Below, one piece after another: positions 425-12,029 of a stretch of 34,586 nt of DNA. The stretch is from Hungatella sp. GTDB taxonomy: Bacteria > Bacillota > Clostridia > Lachnospirales > Lachnospiraceae. The first letter of the stretch is position 1. Each line of letters opens with the position of its first letter. The stretch lies in the NCBI GenBank assembly GCA_022796015.1, contig JAAWHU010000035.1, positions 1-34,586 of the forward strand. Reading direction: 5' to 3'. The position numbers and the translations under genes were made by a program. The notes below the pieces were generated by a model. That model was not told where the DNA came from, did not search any database, and was given only the letters and a program-made list of their open reading frames with translations.

Positions 425-1615
425 ATGAAAAAATACAGACGGATATTTACAGTTGTCATTGACTCTCTTGGTATCGGGGCTATGCCCAATGCGGCTCAGT
501 ATGACGACGAGGGCACCGATACCCTGGGCCATATTGACCGGCATATGGATCCATTTAAAATTCCCAACCTTGCCAGAATGGGTATCGCCAACCTTCACCC
601 CTTAAAGCATGTGGAGCGTGTAGAGAAGCCCCTTGGCTACTATGGGGAGCTTTTGGAGGCCAGTGTGGGCAAGGACACCATGACAGGCCACTGGGAGATG
701 ATGGGGCTTCATATTACTAAGCCTTTTAAGACCTTTACAGACACCGGTTTTCCGGAGGAGCTTTTGGAGGAATTGTCTAAAAGGACCGGCCACAAGATTG
801 TGGGCAACAAGTCCGCCAGCGGCACCCAGATCTTAGATGAGCTGGCAGAGCATGAGATTGCCACCGGGGACATGATCGTATATACATCGGCGGACTCGGT
901 ACTTCAGATCTGCGGCAACGAGGAAACCTTCGGCTTGGAAGAGCTGTACCGCTGCTGCGAGATTGCCAGGGAACTGACCATGAGAGATGAGTGGAAGGTG
1001 GGACGGGTTATTGCCAGACCTTATGTGGGAAGGAAAAAGGGAGAGTTTAAACGAACCAGCAACCGCCATGATTATGCATTAAAGCCATATGGAAGGACTG
1101 CCTTAGACGCCCTGAAGGAGGCGGGATACGACGTGATCAGCGTAGGGAAGATCCGGGATATCTTCGATGGAGAAGGAATCACGGAAAGCCATAAGTCCAA
1201 AAGCAGTGTCCACGGCATGGATCAGACCATTGAGATTGCGGACAAGGAGTTTGAAGGCCTCTGCTTTGTGAATCTGGTGGATTTTGACGCTCTGTGGGGC
1301 CATCGGAGGAATCCTGTAGGCTACGGACAGGAGCTGGAGCGCTTTGACGAGAAATTAGGGATTCTTCTTGAGAAACTTAGAGAAGATGATTTGCTGATCA
1401 TTACTGCGGATCATGGCAATGATCCCACTTATAAAGGTACGGATCACACCAAGGAGAAGGTGCCGTTTCTGGCCTGGTCGCCTTCCATGAAGGGCCATGG
1501 AAGGCTGGAAGCAAAGGACACCTTTGCCATAATCGGAGCTACCATTGCCCATAATTTCCAGGTGGATATGCCAGAGGGAACCATCGGAACCAGCATACTG
1601 GAGGAATTAGAATAA
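425..1615 (+). CDS. deoB: Phosphopentomutase
   Basis: DeoB interconverts ribose-1-phosphate or deoxyribose-1-phosphate with the 5-phosphates, linking nucleoside salvage to the pentose phosphate pathway. The 396-residue product has the usual family length and the alkaline-phosphatase-superfamily metal ligands: [13 protein letters not shown] near residues 11-23 (metal-binding Asp13), the phosphorylated threonine Thr85 in [12 protein letters not shown], and [18 protein letters not shown] near 327-344 (Asp/His metal ligands). A cap domain lies between them. The start ATG follows an AGGAG 9 bases upstream. The gene is followed by a strong terminator, so it is either alone or last in a transcript with the preceding flavoprotein gene. 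Family assignment is firm; nothing in the sequence is unusual. Confidence 0.97.
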
Positions 1616-9688: not shown

Positions 9689-9729
9689 ACGGCTCCGAAA
9701 GGTTATAAGTAAAGAGTGAGGTGAAAAGA

Positions 9730-10065
9730 ATGAAGATTATTTATGCGATTGTAAGTTCTGACGATGGCAACCGGGTTACGGAGGTGCTGAACGAGAATCA
9801 GTTTATGGTGACCAAACTGGCGACTACCGGAGGATTTTTGAAAAAGGGGAACTGTACATTGATGATCGGTACAGAGGCCGAGAAGGTGGATCATGCCATA
9901 GAGCTGATTAAGGAAACCTGCGGCAAGAGGCAGAAGATTACCTGCAATGTGCCTGCGCCCAATATCTCCTCTATTTCGGCCGGCTATATGATGATGCCCA
10001 TGACCGTGGAACTGGGAGGGGCCACTATATTTGTAACGGATGTAGAGCGGTTTGAGAAGATTTAG
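9730..10065 (+). CDS. darA: Cyclic-di-AMP receptor, PII-like (DarA/PstA family)
   Basis: This 111-residue protein is a PII-like trimeric binder of the second messenger cyclic di-AMP. The family signature is plain: MKIIYAIVSSDDGNRVTEVL, then VTKLATTGGFLKKGNCTLMIG near residues 24-44, and VELGGATIFVTDVERFEKI at the end. These match the B. subtilis DarA (YaaQ) pattern, in which the TTGGFL loop and the C-terminal GGAT strand contact the nucleotide. ATG 9730 is chosen because GAGGTG lies 6 bases upstream; GTG 9721 would add three residues. In Firmicutes c-di-AMP controls potassium and osmolyte uptake and cell-wall state. The partner of DarA proteins is still unsettled. A strong terminator follows. 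Confidence 0.95.
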   Translation: MKIIYAIVSSDDGNRVTEVLNENQFMVTKLATTGGFLKKGNCTLMIGTEAEKVDHAIELIKETCGKRQKITCNVPAPNISSISAGYMMMPMTVELGGATIFVTDVERFEKI

Positions 10066-10088
10066 GCCGAGAGAATAAAACTTCAAAG

Positions 10089-10142
10089 AGCCCGTGTTCG
10101 CTCGATTAATCCTGGAGCGAAGGCGGGCTTATATAATTTTTA
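10089..10142 (+). terminator. Rho-independent terminator after darA
   Basis: A long hairpin pairs AGCCCG (10089-10094) with CGGGCT (10124-10129) and TTCGCTC (10097-10103) with GAGCGAA (10115-10121). It is followed by a T/A-rich tract ending in a T run. Confidence 0.8.
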
Positions 10143-10272
10143 GAATTTTCAGTTAATTAATAATTAGAATCAAAAAAAGCCGACTAAAATGTTGTAATAA
10201 AACAAATAATTCAAATAAAATTATACAATTAAAGAATAGAATAAAAATATTAAAAAAATCTCAAAAAAAGCA
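10143..10272. other. A/T-rich tract upstream of the ncRNA promoter (UP-element-like)
   Basis: About 130 bp with almost no G or C and many runs of A lead directly into the -35 box at 10273. A-tracts in this position resemble UP elements, which bind the alpha C-terminal domain of RNA polymerase at very strong promoters. No open reading frame is seen here. Confidence 0.5.
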
Positions 10273-10301
10273 TTGACAAATCAAAGGAGTTGAACTATAA
10301 T
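10273..10301 (+). promoter_or_regulatory. Full-consensus sigma-A promoter of the noncoding RNA
   Basis: TTGACA (10273-10278) and TATAAT (10296-10301) match consensus at all twelve positions with the optimal 17-bp spacer. This is the best promoter in the window, and the next annotated plus-strand protein gene lies more than 3.5 kb away. Predicted transcription starts near 10308. Confidence 0.9.
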
Positions 10302-10307
10302 AAAGAC

Positions 10308-10810
10308 ATCAAAAAGAAACAAACAAGTTAGAGAAGATACAAAAGAGGATCGAAGAACTAACAAATATGAAAGAAGGAGGTACGGACCACCAAAGACTTA
10401 AGATTTGTTTCATCTATCAGATAAAGATGTGAATTTGAAAGAAGATAGATGAGACCAGGACCCCCTGAACTATAGGAAGCAGACCCGGAACATGGAAGCT
10501 ATGGATTCCGCATTCTAAGATCGTTAACAGAAGAAGATATTCGTTTGGTGATATGACGAGAAAGTATTGCTGGTGCGAAGTAGATTTTCGGAGTATAACA
10601 TTAGAAAGAAAGATGAAGAAAAAGGAACATACATAGAACGGGGAGCGGAATATAGGGAAGAACAATTAAATATAGAGAAACTTAAAGACAGACCCAAAAG
10701 GGGCATAGAGGTCTTTAAGAATTACCGGAAAAGAGAGGTAATAGTCCAATGGATGAGATAGTATAGAGGCGGGTATCGTGTAAGGAAAGAAAAAGACGAT
10801 ACCCGCTTCT
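10308..10810 (+). ncRNA. Putative large structured noncoding RNA, about 500 nt
   Basis: No protein gene is convincing here, yet the region sits between a consensus promoter and a 15-bp terminal stem. The predicted transcript is purine-rich and folds locally. GTTAG/CTAAC pairs at 10327-10331 and 10358-10362. A 12-bp stem with one G-U pair joins 10407-10418 to 10444-10455. CGGAA/TTCCG plus CAT/ATG form a bulged hairpin at 10486-10510. CTTAAAGAC pairs with GTCTTTAAG (10681-10689 and 10711-10719) around an inner CCC-AAAA-GGG hairpin. ATTACC pairs with GGTAAT (10721-10726 and 10737-10742). I do not see RNase P, tmRNA, SRP or 6S RNA signatures. It could belong to an ornate large RNA class such as ROOL, whose consensus I cannot check here, or be new. 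A 64-codon frame inside lacks a ribosome binding site and looks spurious. Confidence 0.62.
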
Positions 10811-10811
10811 G
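10765..10811. terminator. Terminal hairpin of the ncRNA, between convergent transcripts
   Basis: AGAGGCGGGTATCGT (10765-10779) pairs with ACGATACCCGCTTCT (10796-10810) over 15 bp with one G-U pair and a 16-nt purine-rich loop. The T tract after it is poor, so termination may be partial. It may also serve the radical SAM gene on the other strand. Confidence 0.6.
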
Positions 10812-10834
10812 CTGTGTGAATTTTTGCAGTAATC

Positions 10835-11758
10835 TTACGTTAACCCTTCCAGGTCAAAGGGCGGGGTGTATTCTTCCTTGGCACTGCATCTTTTTTGCAT
10901 ATAGCCATCACATAAGCCCAGTTCCAGGGCAGTATCCACAACCTTTTCATATTCATATGTAGTAATTCTCCGGCTGATCTCAGGATAGTCTGACGTGGTG
11001 CGGGCCAGATAGAAGGGGGTATACTGGCTTAAGAGGCTGATCTTATATCCTCCGTGAGGCAGTGTGTCCTTCATCCAGTGAAGGAGCTTTATGGAATCGC
11101 CCATTGCCCCGGGCAGAACCATATGGCGGATCATGACTCCCGATTTCAGCAGGCCGTTCTCGTCTGTTACAGGAGCGCCTGTCTGCTGTATCATCTGGGA
11201 AATGGCCCGGCTTGCGCAGGCAAAGTAATCTTCAGCCTTGGAGTAGCCTAGGGACAGAGCGGAGTCATAATATTTCAGATCAGGAAGCCAAATATCAATG
11301 TAGGGCTTAAGGGCTTTGATGACAGAGGCCCTTTCATAGCCGCCGCAGTTGTAGACTACGGGGATGGACAGGGAGGGCCGGGCCAGATTCAGGGCTTCTG
11401 TCACAGAGGGGAGATAGTGAGTGGCAGTGACCAGATTAATGTTGTGTGCGCCCTGGTTCTGAAGCTTTAAAAACAGCTCCGACAGTACCTGAGGCGTCAC
11501 CTCTTTTCCGAAGCCCTCATGGCTTATTTTGTAATTCTGGCAAAAACAGCATCTCAGGGTGCAGCCACTGAAGAATATGGTGCCGCTTCCCCTGGTGCCG
11601 CTGATGGAGGGCTCCTCCCAATGGTGAAGGGCGGCTCTTGCGATCATGGGCTGGGTGCCGCTCTGACAGAATCCTTTCTTGCAGGTGCGGTCCACGCCGC
11701 ACATGCGGGGGCACAGGCGGCAGCCGGTATATGTATAAGGAAAAGAATGGTTGGTCAT
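10835..11758 (-). CDS. PflA-like radical SAM protein of unknown target (COG1313/PflX type)
   Basis: This 307-residue enzyme carries the radical SAM cluster motif CTLRCCFC (Cys66, Cys70, Cys73). It is preceded by a cysteine-rich N-terminal segment, CRLCPRMCG (Cys13, 16 and 20) and CKKGFC (Cys26 and 31), typical of the PflX/AmmeMemoRadiSam-related group. The body has family strings such as NINLVTATHYLPSV, VVYNCGGYE and DIWLPDLKYYD. The start ATG 11758 is chosen because the Cys motif normally lies near the N terminus; a longer upstream frame crosses a perfect hairpin. No good ribosome binding site precedes the ATG, which is odd. The substrate of this group is not established. It could activate a glycyl radical enzyme or modify another partner, and no partner lies beside it. 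Confidence 0.83.
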   Translation of the reverse strand: MTNHSFPYTYTGCRLCPRMCGVDRTCKKGFCQSGTQPMIARAALHHWEEPSISGTRGSGTIFFSGCTLRCCFCQNYKISHEGFGKEVTPQVLSELFLKLQNQGAHNINLVTATHYLPSVTEALNLARPSLSIPVVYNCGGYERASVIKALKPYIDIWLPDLKYYDSALSLGYSKAEDYFACASRAISQMIQQTGAPVTDENGLLKSGVMIRHMVLPGAMGDSIKLLHWMKDTLPHGGYKISLLSQYTPFYLARTTSDYPEISRRITTYEYEKVVDTALELGLCDGYMQKRCSAKEEYTPPFDLEGLT

Positions 11759-11789
11759 AAAGGAGGGCTCTCTTTCTTTTGGGGGTTTG

Positions 11790-11834
11790 TTTTCTGTTAC
11801 GGGAAAGCTTCTGGAGCTTTCCCGTAACAGAAAA
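11790..11834. repeat. Perfect 20-bp inverted repeat (hairpin)
   Basis: The 20-base arms at 11790-11809 and 11815-11834 are exact reverse complements around the loop TCTGG. The repeat lies 31 bp before the radical SAM start and 21 bp after the stop of the small gene on the same strand. The stem is T-rich at its 5' base and A-rich at its 3' base, and no T run follows on either strand, so it is not an ordinary intrinsic terminator. Confidence 0.85.
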
Positions 11835-11855
11835 GGCTTTGCAGGATCCGGAAAG

Positions 11856-12029
11856 CTATGGGATTTCGGGATCCTTGGAGGAAGGGGGAGTGAGGTATGG
11901 GAACATTTCCTCATAGGCTTCCAGTTCCTCATCGGTTTCAGGAAGGGCGGGAATCAGTCCCGTACATTCCATGGAGGATACAATCGGGGTATCCAGAAAA
12001 TCATCCTCATCTGTTTCAAAAATATTCAT
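11856..12029 (-). CDS. Small acidic protein downstream of pyrG
   Basis: A 57-residue product begins MNIFETDEDDFLDTPIVSS and ends in PYLTPPSSKDPEIP. It is strongly acidic, with no membrane segment and no motif I can name. The start is supported by GAGGTG 6 bases before the ATG, a proper ribosome binding site. The reading frame, acidic composition and a position 61 bp after pyrG on the same strand support a real gene, probably co-transcribed with pyrG. The SMECTGLIPALP segment near residues 19-30 looks like a conserved core, and I have an impression of similar small hypotheticals in related bacteria that I cannot confirm. Function unknown. Confidence 0.65.
   Translation of the reverse strand: MNIFETDEDDFLDTPIVSSMECTGLIPALPETDEELEAYEEMFPYLTPPSSKDPEIP

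Follow-up and report, generated by a model that had tools for sequence, protein, structure and literature searches.

The bar minigenes of phage lambda are two-codon frames in phage DNA, and the macrolide E-peptides act on the ribosome. Dual-function RNAs such as RNAIII and SgrS encode peptides of tens of residues, and in translation-controlled attenuators the stop of the leader frame meets the base of the terminator stem. The Lachnospiraceae rank among the main bacteria of the gut. Thousands of candidate structured RNAs have been predicted in human microbiomes (PMC8040213); Downstream-peptide and yfr6 RNAs consist of a 5' UTR element that precedes a short ORF (PMC2864571), and early-codon drop-off has been studied with AUA at position four of a reporter (PMC10192219).

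In this paper we describe an RNA gene, and the family to which it belongs, from a Hungatella sp. window (Lachnospiraceae; assembly GCA_022796015.1, contig JAAWHU010000035.1), the window being the whole stretch of 34,586 nucleotides that was analysed. Judged from sequence comparison, this is a family of RNA genes with a strong promoter, covarying helices, modules built around Shine-Dalgarno (SD) sequences, a five-codon frame and a terminal hairpin. The most likely reading, to which we give a probability of about 0.55, is that of a trans-acting RNA gene that would engage ribosomes and ends in a minigene.

Like the lambda bar minigenes (background in PMC10192219), the element has an SD, a start codon, a very short frame, a stop and a prominent AUA; unlike them, its frame is mostly of five codons, lies in a dedicated structured RNA gene of the chromosome and is accompanied by extra SD modules that lack a start. 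With ROOL, GOLLD, OLE and raiA (PMC12286853, PMC11706538) it shares structure, a promoter of its own and a place in an intergenic gap, but it gives no match to their covariance models, its smallest members have an estimated length of about 140 nt and its core consists of SD modules and short frames. RNAIII and SgrS are comparable in that a regulatory RNA, putative in our case, also holds a reading frame, whereas here the frame has five codons and SD modules without start codons are present. Downstream-peptide and yfr6 RNAs (PMC2864571) are likewise conserved RNAs adjoining a short conserved coding sequence; the element differs in its five-codon ORF at the 3' end and its repeated SD modules. 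Finally, the short frame with a stop that meets a terminator hairpin recalls leader-peptide attenuators, but there is no constant downstream gene, and 31 of 85 loci are followed by a convergent one.

The RNA gene between darA and a radical SAM gene

A sequence-only reading had proposed, for the gap between these two genes, a large structured RNA behind a full-consensus promoter. The features of the region are as follows.

9721..10065 (+), darA, cyclic-di-AMP receptor, upstream neighbour (Pfam PF06153)
10140..10272 (+), AT-rich A-tract stretch, UP-element-like in sequence and putatively in function
10273..10301 (+), sigma-A promoter TTGACA-17-TATAAT, 12/12, with the start expected near 10307-10309
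10327..10362 (+), 5' hairpin with a GTTAG/CTAAC stem, all cells paired in 8 genus sequences
10374..10381 (+), SD of the 5' module, AAGGAGGT, for which pairing to the 16S tail is computed at -14.0 kcal/mol
10374..10401 (+), 5' module from sequence and pattern matches: SD, TACGGACCA, then CCA-AAG-ACT-TAA, without a start codon
10407..10455 (+), 12-bp hairpin, 10407-10418 with 10444-10455, pairs 12/12
10470..10655 (+), central domain of helices closed by CTATAG/ATATAG, different or missing in many relatives
10540..10579 (+), hairpin with a nearly invariant loop region, ATATGACGAGAAAGTAT
10664..10676 (+), AU-rich motif AATTAAATATAGA, conserved in eight aligned genus members
10681..10719 (+), 9-bp stem, 10681-10689 with 10711-10719, pairs 9/9
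10733..10738 (+), SD of the 3' module, GAGAGG, duplex energy -9.8 kcal/mol
10749..10766 (+), mini-ORF ATG GAT GAG ATA GTA TAG, MDEIV, from covariance-model alignment and codon counts
10764..10811 (+), terminal hairpin of 16 bp, 10764-10779 with 10796-10811, overlapping the mini-ORF stop codon; presumed terminator
10835..11932 (-), radical SAM gene, convergent neighbour outside the RNA (Pfam PF04055)

The promoter, 17-bp spacer included, is as the sequence-only reading had described it, and AT-rich DNA precedes it in the aligned genus homologues as well. The upstream gene scored 118.3 bits against the NCBIfam DarA model, below the cut-off of 140. The roughly 500 nt behind the promoter are, as proposed, structured: the folding energy of 10308-10811 was -118.6 kcal/mol, compared with -82.6 +/- 6.1 kcal/mol in 100 dinucleotide shuffles (z -5.9), none of which was equally low. 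Both the 12-bp and the 9-bp stem named beforehand pair throughout, and the terminal stem is present, although it measures 16 bp rather than the 15 bp claimed. The mini-ORF ends at the foot of this stem. The terminal hairpin, which is presumed to be a terminator, has a weak U tail in the window and was not reported there by a terminator scan; in the 105 copies scored across the family the stem is 11-20 bp long, and a T-rich tail (5 or more T among the 10 nt across the end of the stem) was present in 84 by raw count.

At the gathering level Rfam gave no match in the whole window; relaxing the limit to E<=10 over 10000-11100 brought up two CRISPR-repeat matches and no others, both below threshold (E 1.8 and 2.5). 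The scan included ROOL and raiA, as the first reading had advised, and no family rose above threshold. Nor did any match overlap the element in 48 further loci (20 scanned at E<=1, 18 at the gathering level and 10 at E<=0.5), one of which, L028, is probably no true homologue. The earlier failure to match the RNA to RNase P RNA, tmRNA, SRP RNA or 6S RNA was borne out, none of these giving a covariance-model match in the window or over 10000-11100. The suggestion of ROOL, GOLLD or OLE as its class found no support: neither these nor raiA had a covariance-model match in the window or the 48 loci, and estimated transcripts range from 138 to 775 nt (median 384), so that neither a constant size nor a large ornate fold is found in all members. 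Clostridiales-1 (RF01699) lies about 0.1-2 kb from the RNA in L135, above its cut-off, and in L155, below it. It was rejected as the same element, no module being seen in its sequence by eye, and its vicinity is perhaps due to chance.

That the gap holds no credible protein gene is correct insofar as no plus-strand ORF of at least 80 aa lies within the RNA, but the five-codon mini-ORF had been missed, which of all coding-like features has the best support. In eight genus homologues the longest plus-strand ORFs, of 21-64 aa, differ in position, and of 112 alignment gaps (a shared gap counting once for each row) 97 have a length not divisible by three. An 82-aa minus-strand ORF at 10417-10665 was rejected as a protein gene, there being no Pfam match. 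The longest minus-strand ORFs of the eight members measure 51-101 aa, and 12 of their 28 pairs align at E<=1e-3 with 35-63% identity over 16-77 aa; given the frame-breaking gaps we put this likeness down to shared DNA (74% mean column identity), and a minus-strand coding role may formally exist. ORFs, Pfam and gap phases together gave no conserved protein gene in the RNA region. No description of such an RNA was found by title or abstract in a literature search that left most subscription journals outside, and relative to Rfam 15 and the literature searched the family is apparently undescribed. Fragments of it may be among the supplementary models of PMC8040213.

Spread, covariation and variable domains of the family

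At E<=0.01 blastn with the window's RNA matched 21 of the 26 same-genus genomes, its own included; among family genomes it matched 66 of 200, many of them weakly. An alignment of the 3' part of 35 copies (A1) served as the basis of a covariance model, R1, which matched 22 of the 26 same-genus genomes (own included), 94 of 397 family genomes at E<=1e-6 and 180 of 397, from 157 of 334 genera, at E<=0.01, the last figure being partly chance. Conservation beyond a single strain, on which the sequence-only reading had let its case depend, is therefore found in the 22 genus genomes and the 94 family genomes. In the class, R1 matched 9 of 391 genomes at E<=1e-3. Six were of the same family, the own genome among them and one (L166) false on inspection; the three outside the family were all chance on inspection. 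Five further weak family matches were inspected. Four of them, L162-L165, appear genuine and the fifth, L166 (E 8.6e-5), is false, which makes the range from E 1e-5 to 1e-2 a mixture. Because the copies are related, and some genomes are close relatives, these counts are not independent.

A 27-letter pattern of the 5' module retrieved 14 named records, and their titles (Lachnospiraceae, Eisenbergiella, Faecalicatena, Fimousia, Paralachnospira, Eubacteriales, Clostridiaceae) point to Lachnospiraceae as the family. Twelve of the 14 are labelled or named as metagenome-assembled genomes (MAGs); the titles of the other two, Lachnospiraceae bacterium 3-2 and strain 1XD21-29, are non-MAG. The pattern had no exact match in viral contigs, and the window's RNA had no blastn match at E<=0.01 in plasmids or phages. 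A functionless repeat or mobile sequence, or an artefact of metagenome assembly, was already disfavoured as an explanation and is scarcely credible. The share of MAGs and the one to four R1 matches per genome would suit it, but it is the spacers that diverge, the promoter, the modules and the terminator being conserved, and in 20 genus loci, with flanks of about 1.5 kb of which some are cut by contig ends, the radical SAM gene adjoins the RNA in 18 and darA in 7; the two non-MAG records and the empty viral, plasmid and phage searches argue against it as well. About a quarter to under half of the sampled family genomes match, yet there is no Rfam family.

Eight full-length genus members of about 500 nt were aligned (A4), and the alignment keeps the promoter, the hairpins and the terminal stem. 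Both sides have changed in 20 of its 88 pairs, compared with 8.1 in shuffles and with 0 of 500 shuffles as high, although the structure was derived from the tested sequences themselves; 94% of paired cells can pair, against 40-47% when the structure is slid, and on one of five measures, that of further pair types, 19 of 500 shuffles reached the observed value. For the 3' hairpins in 35 sequences none of the five covariation measures was matched by a shuffle. Within the genus alignment one pair of the 5' hairpin (10327-10362) is C-G in four sequences and U-A in four, the 12-bp hairpin has all cells paired with one double-sided and six one-sided changes, and three pairs of the 9-bp stem have changed on both sides. 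No covariation was seen there for GGAGGU[ACGG]ACCACC, a 5' hairpin that would hide the SD. With the 12/12 promoter and the absence of an Rfam match, the 20 double-changed pairs uphold the proposal of a large RNA that is conserved, covaries and has a promoter to itself. That proposal had set compensatory change in the stems against codon-like substitution: the former was found in the helices, but the latter occurs too, at 10749-10766.

What lies between the modules varies. In the window the insert is the domain 10407-10719; elsewhere it is a shared hairpin loop, different repeats or almost nothing, and the smallest members, estimated at some 140 nt, are hardly more than two modules and a terminator. 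The loop hairpin, recognised by TGACGAGAAAG, occurs in 42 of 107 RNAs, with its four inner pairs formed in all 42 and the next seven in 29-41 of them, and a relaxed form of the AU-rich motif AATTAAATATAGA in 29 of 107.

Several single members deserve description. L017, of the same genus, is a natural deletion without the central domain, about 320 nt long from the -35 box, and retains both modules and the terminal hairpin. L162 and L165, from two genomes of one genus in the same family, have mini-ORFs LEISE and LEILN with a terminal hairpin behind a different upstream domain that contains two near-copies of GTGGCTTAAGCTTCAC; Rfam gave no match overlapping the element in L162. The 3' module seems joinable to other RNA domains. 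The insert of L043, upstream of the R1 match at 822-910 (-), consists of about ten imperfect 23-24-nt repeats of the type AGCAGTACARGAAGTAATGT, counted by eye, and GUAC...GUAC pairs were noticed in other members, for example L076, L083 and L145.

It is quite unlikely, in our estimate, that the element is a structured noncoding RNA of the ROOL, GOLLD or OLE kind whose function resides in its fold, the mini-ORF being a by-product such as a ribosome-protected 3' end. The double-changed pairs that no shuffle equalled, the nearly invariant loop in 42 of 107 RNAs and the roughly 500 nt kept in eight genus members are what it would lead one to expect, but the central domain is precisely the variable part, the smallest members dispense with it, L017 has lost it, and in L162 and L165 the 3' module stands behind another domain.

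Predicted ribosome-binding modules and the mini-ORF

Promoters and frames were counted in 110 copies, 5' modules in 107 RNAs. The promoter was taken as the best score within 900 nt, by which some may be wrong, and was 12/12 in 62 copies, 11/12 in 36 and 10/12 in 9; random 900-nt stretches of the fetched loci hold 12/12 in 3.9% and 11/12 in 5.3%. None was assigned in L067, L105 and L072, the last being near a contig end. Left out as duplicates were L047, L064 and L066 (the places of L087, L094 and L088), and L146, which repeats part of L100, was excluded. L049, L055 and L061, all with a start and a stop, also stand outside the 110-copy counts.

The 5' modules have a strong SD, mostly CCR or AAG in the position of a start codon and, as a rule, UAA three codons further. 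Applied to the stretch from promoter to 3' module, a regular expression found 135 of them, chance hits included, in 102 of 107 RNAs; 10 of the 107 have only one module. At the start-codon place they have CCA (40), CCG (35), AAG (22), ATG (10), TTG (2) or other triplets (26), and the 12 with ATG or TTG, among them one in L109 that belongs to a neighbouring array as its 3' module, all run for two to six codons before a stop. The first in-frame stop falls exactly at the fourth codon in 88 of 135 modules, against 13 and 1 in the other two frames, where the highest single stop counts within twelve codons are 13 and 25. This fourth codon is TAA in 84, TGA in 3, TAG in 2 and something else in 46, so that TAA may be a motif rather than a stop; true 5' modules without a stop there exist, for example in L077 and L143. 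A strict form of the pattern occurs exactly once in 20 of the 26 genus genomes (own included), each time beside an R1 match, and its reverse in none of the 26.

Median SD duplex energies with the 16S tail were -13.9 kcal/mol for 5' modules (n=129) and -11.1 kcal/mol for 3' modules (n=96), compared with -5.9 kcal/mol at 21 ORF starts of the window, the module sites having been chosen for an AGG core and the ORF starts being mechanical. The distance from one SD to the next is 43-60 nt in 23 cases, among which the L109 pair figures twice, and 28 nt in one; the remaining spacings are at least 65 nt, mostly 150-640 nt with an insert. Three other ideas were dropped: read-through of the 5' module from an upstream start meets an in-frame TAG in the GGAGGTAGATT copies (L070, L073, L074), and neither pairing of the module's GGACC with GGUCC of the 3' module nor pairing of AUCUA with UAGAU was consistent by eye.

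The 3' module consists of an SD, a start codon and a stop directly before the terminator; in the window, aligned on R1, GAGAGG...GTCCA is followed by ATG GAT GAG ATA GTA TAG. The best 87 R1 matches, from 85 loci, start with ATG (61), TTG (24), GTG (1) or another triplet (1) and stop at codon 6 in 74 and codon 7 in 12. In L135 there is no start codon at the position, and a TTG frame of eight codons, MDNLETIV, was seen by eye a few bases downstream. Among the 110 copies 109 have a start codon (ATG 81, TTG 26, GTG 2, CTG 0), with the stop at codon 6 in 93, codon 7 in 15 and codon 11 in one, which is the layout of a minigene, an SD and a start with a stop within a few codons (109 of 110 starts, 108 stops at codon 6 or 7). 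The segments behind R1 had been trimmed at CCANTGGA or CCCATGGA, and for 23 of the 110 copies placement relied on a pattern demanding NTGG, both of which favour NTGG starts; the absence of CTG, the stop position and the 14 records fetched by their 5' module are independent of this bias. None of these records is, under its id, in the R1 training set; L154 and L159 are apparently the contigs L086 and L080, leaving 12 of the 14 new. In all 14, R1 matches the same strand farther downstream (E 1e-15 to 0.018, the weakest being L150), and a frame 5-8 codons long separates the SD from the terminal hairpin. Twelve have it behind a CC(A/C/G)-NTG context; L147 and L150 read, by eye, ATG ATT GAA GAA TCA ATG TAA and ATG ATT GAA GAA TCA TTA TAA.

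The consensus peptide is M-D-[E/S]-I-V, with divergent forms such as METMS, MDNEM, MIEESM and MDMELISE. The second residue is Asp or Glu in 101 of 109, and both Asp codons are used; Ser at the third is AGY in 31 and TCA in 3, Val at the fifth is GTT, GTA, GTC or GTG in 45, 11, 10 and 2, and TAG, TAA and TGA all serve as stops. Frame pairs that differ by one letter comprise 27 synonymous and 20 non-synonymous changes, where a synonymous fraction of 0.19 is expected. From these aligned copies, substitution in the mini-ORF is codon-like, within an RNA that otherwise changes by compensation. The other two frames have early stops in 65 and 38 of 109, at one fixed place each, and it is by its variants and by the 108 of 109 that frame 0 is distinguished, not by stop-free other frames. 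The letters could in part serve RNA structure, GUCC-ANU-GGAY being a possible 4-bp hairpin around the start codon.

Codon 4 behaves differently. Ile is encoded there by ATA in 63 of 63 cases, against 71 of 504 in the genes of the window, one-letter changes are 0 synonymous to 4 non-synonymous, and the third base is a purine in 107 of 109 copies. From the uniform ATA and the 0:4 changes we infer that selection at this codon is not on the peptide alone; the invariable AUA is not explained by the peptide and may be the best clue to an effect at the level of tRNA.

A minigene acting through its peptide or its peptidyl-tRNA ranks second among the readings and is unlikely. With initiation at the strong SD and a stop soon reached, MDEIV or MDSIV would be made, or drop-off of peptidyl-tRNA would tie up a scarce tRNA, for example the AUA reader, in the manner of the lambda bar minigenes, or the action would be on the ribosome, as with the macrolide E-peptides. 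Conservation of M-D-x-x-V with synonymous change and the bias to AUA point this way, as does early-codon drop-off with AUA at position four of a reporter (PMC10192219). However, 46 of 109 copies have a codon other than AUA there, the peptides differ, and both the start-less 5' modules and the large covarying domain are left unexplained.

Gene neighbours and a possible mode of action

Across 85 family loci the gene nearest downstream runs in the direction of the RNA in 54; in the other 31, the window's locus among them, it is convergent, so that the regulated downstream gene of an attenuator is missing there. Twenty of the same-strand genes form one sequence cluster, of which two tested members belong to the GH3 family; other tested downstream genes encode an ABC transporter, a histidine kinase and a rhodanese, and one more had no Pfam match. 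Upstream genes, too, are often common to the GH3 loci (in clusters that include an aspartokinase-like and a homoserine dehydrogenase member), as expected from descent. A cis-acting leader, in which a ribosome on the mini-ORF blocks the terminator and lets transcription enter the next gene, would make sense of the stop codon at the foot of the terminator stem and of the 54 same-strand genes, 20 of them in the cluster with GH3 members. It is very unlikely for the family, given the 31 convergent loci, the variety of the other downstream genes and the shared upstream genes at GH3 loci, although a cis role may exist in single loci. Variable neighbours and convergent genes argue that the RNA is probably no cis leader and acts on its own.

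The trans-acting, ribosome-engaging reading could work as follows. The strong promoter would drive transcription of a structured RNA. At the start-less 5' modules, one or more per RNA, a 30S subunit could dock and should not initiate, because the SD is very strong and there is usually no start codon. The 3' module, by contrast, offers an SD, a start, a stop five or six codons on and a terminator hairpin directly after it. Action in trans would come about through the capture of ribosomes or 30S subunits. Start-less sites would load or hold them, and the last site would allow a pentapeptide to be made and the ribosome to finish at the hairpin. In this way the stability or activity of the RNA and of its variable central domain might come to reflect the state of the translation machinery. 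More tentatively, and at odds below even, this would be a new kind of RNA gene, a row of docking sites of which the first lack a start codon by design and the last is a five-codon minigene at the terminator's foot. It would serve as a ribosome trap, or as a gauge of free 30S subunits that tells the cell its translation capacity.

The family blurs the line between noncoding RNA and mRNA, in that its members share predicted ribosome-binding sites whose frames, a few codons long, are shorter than gene finders usually report. If translated, these mini-ORFs would to our knowledge be among the shortest conserved genes known. If it is true that the start-less sites only bind 30S subunits, they would represent a new way to sense or buffer translation.

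Tandem arrangements were seen in two loci that contribute two copies each to the 110: L109 has two 3' modules 208 nt apart, and the two copies of L103 lie about 570 nt apart.
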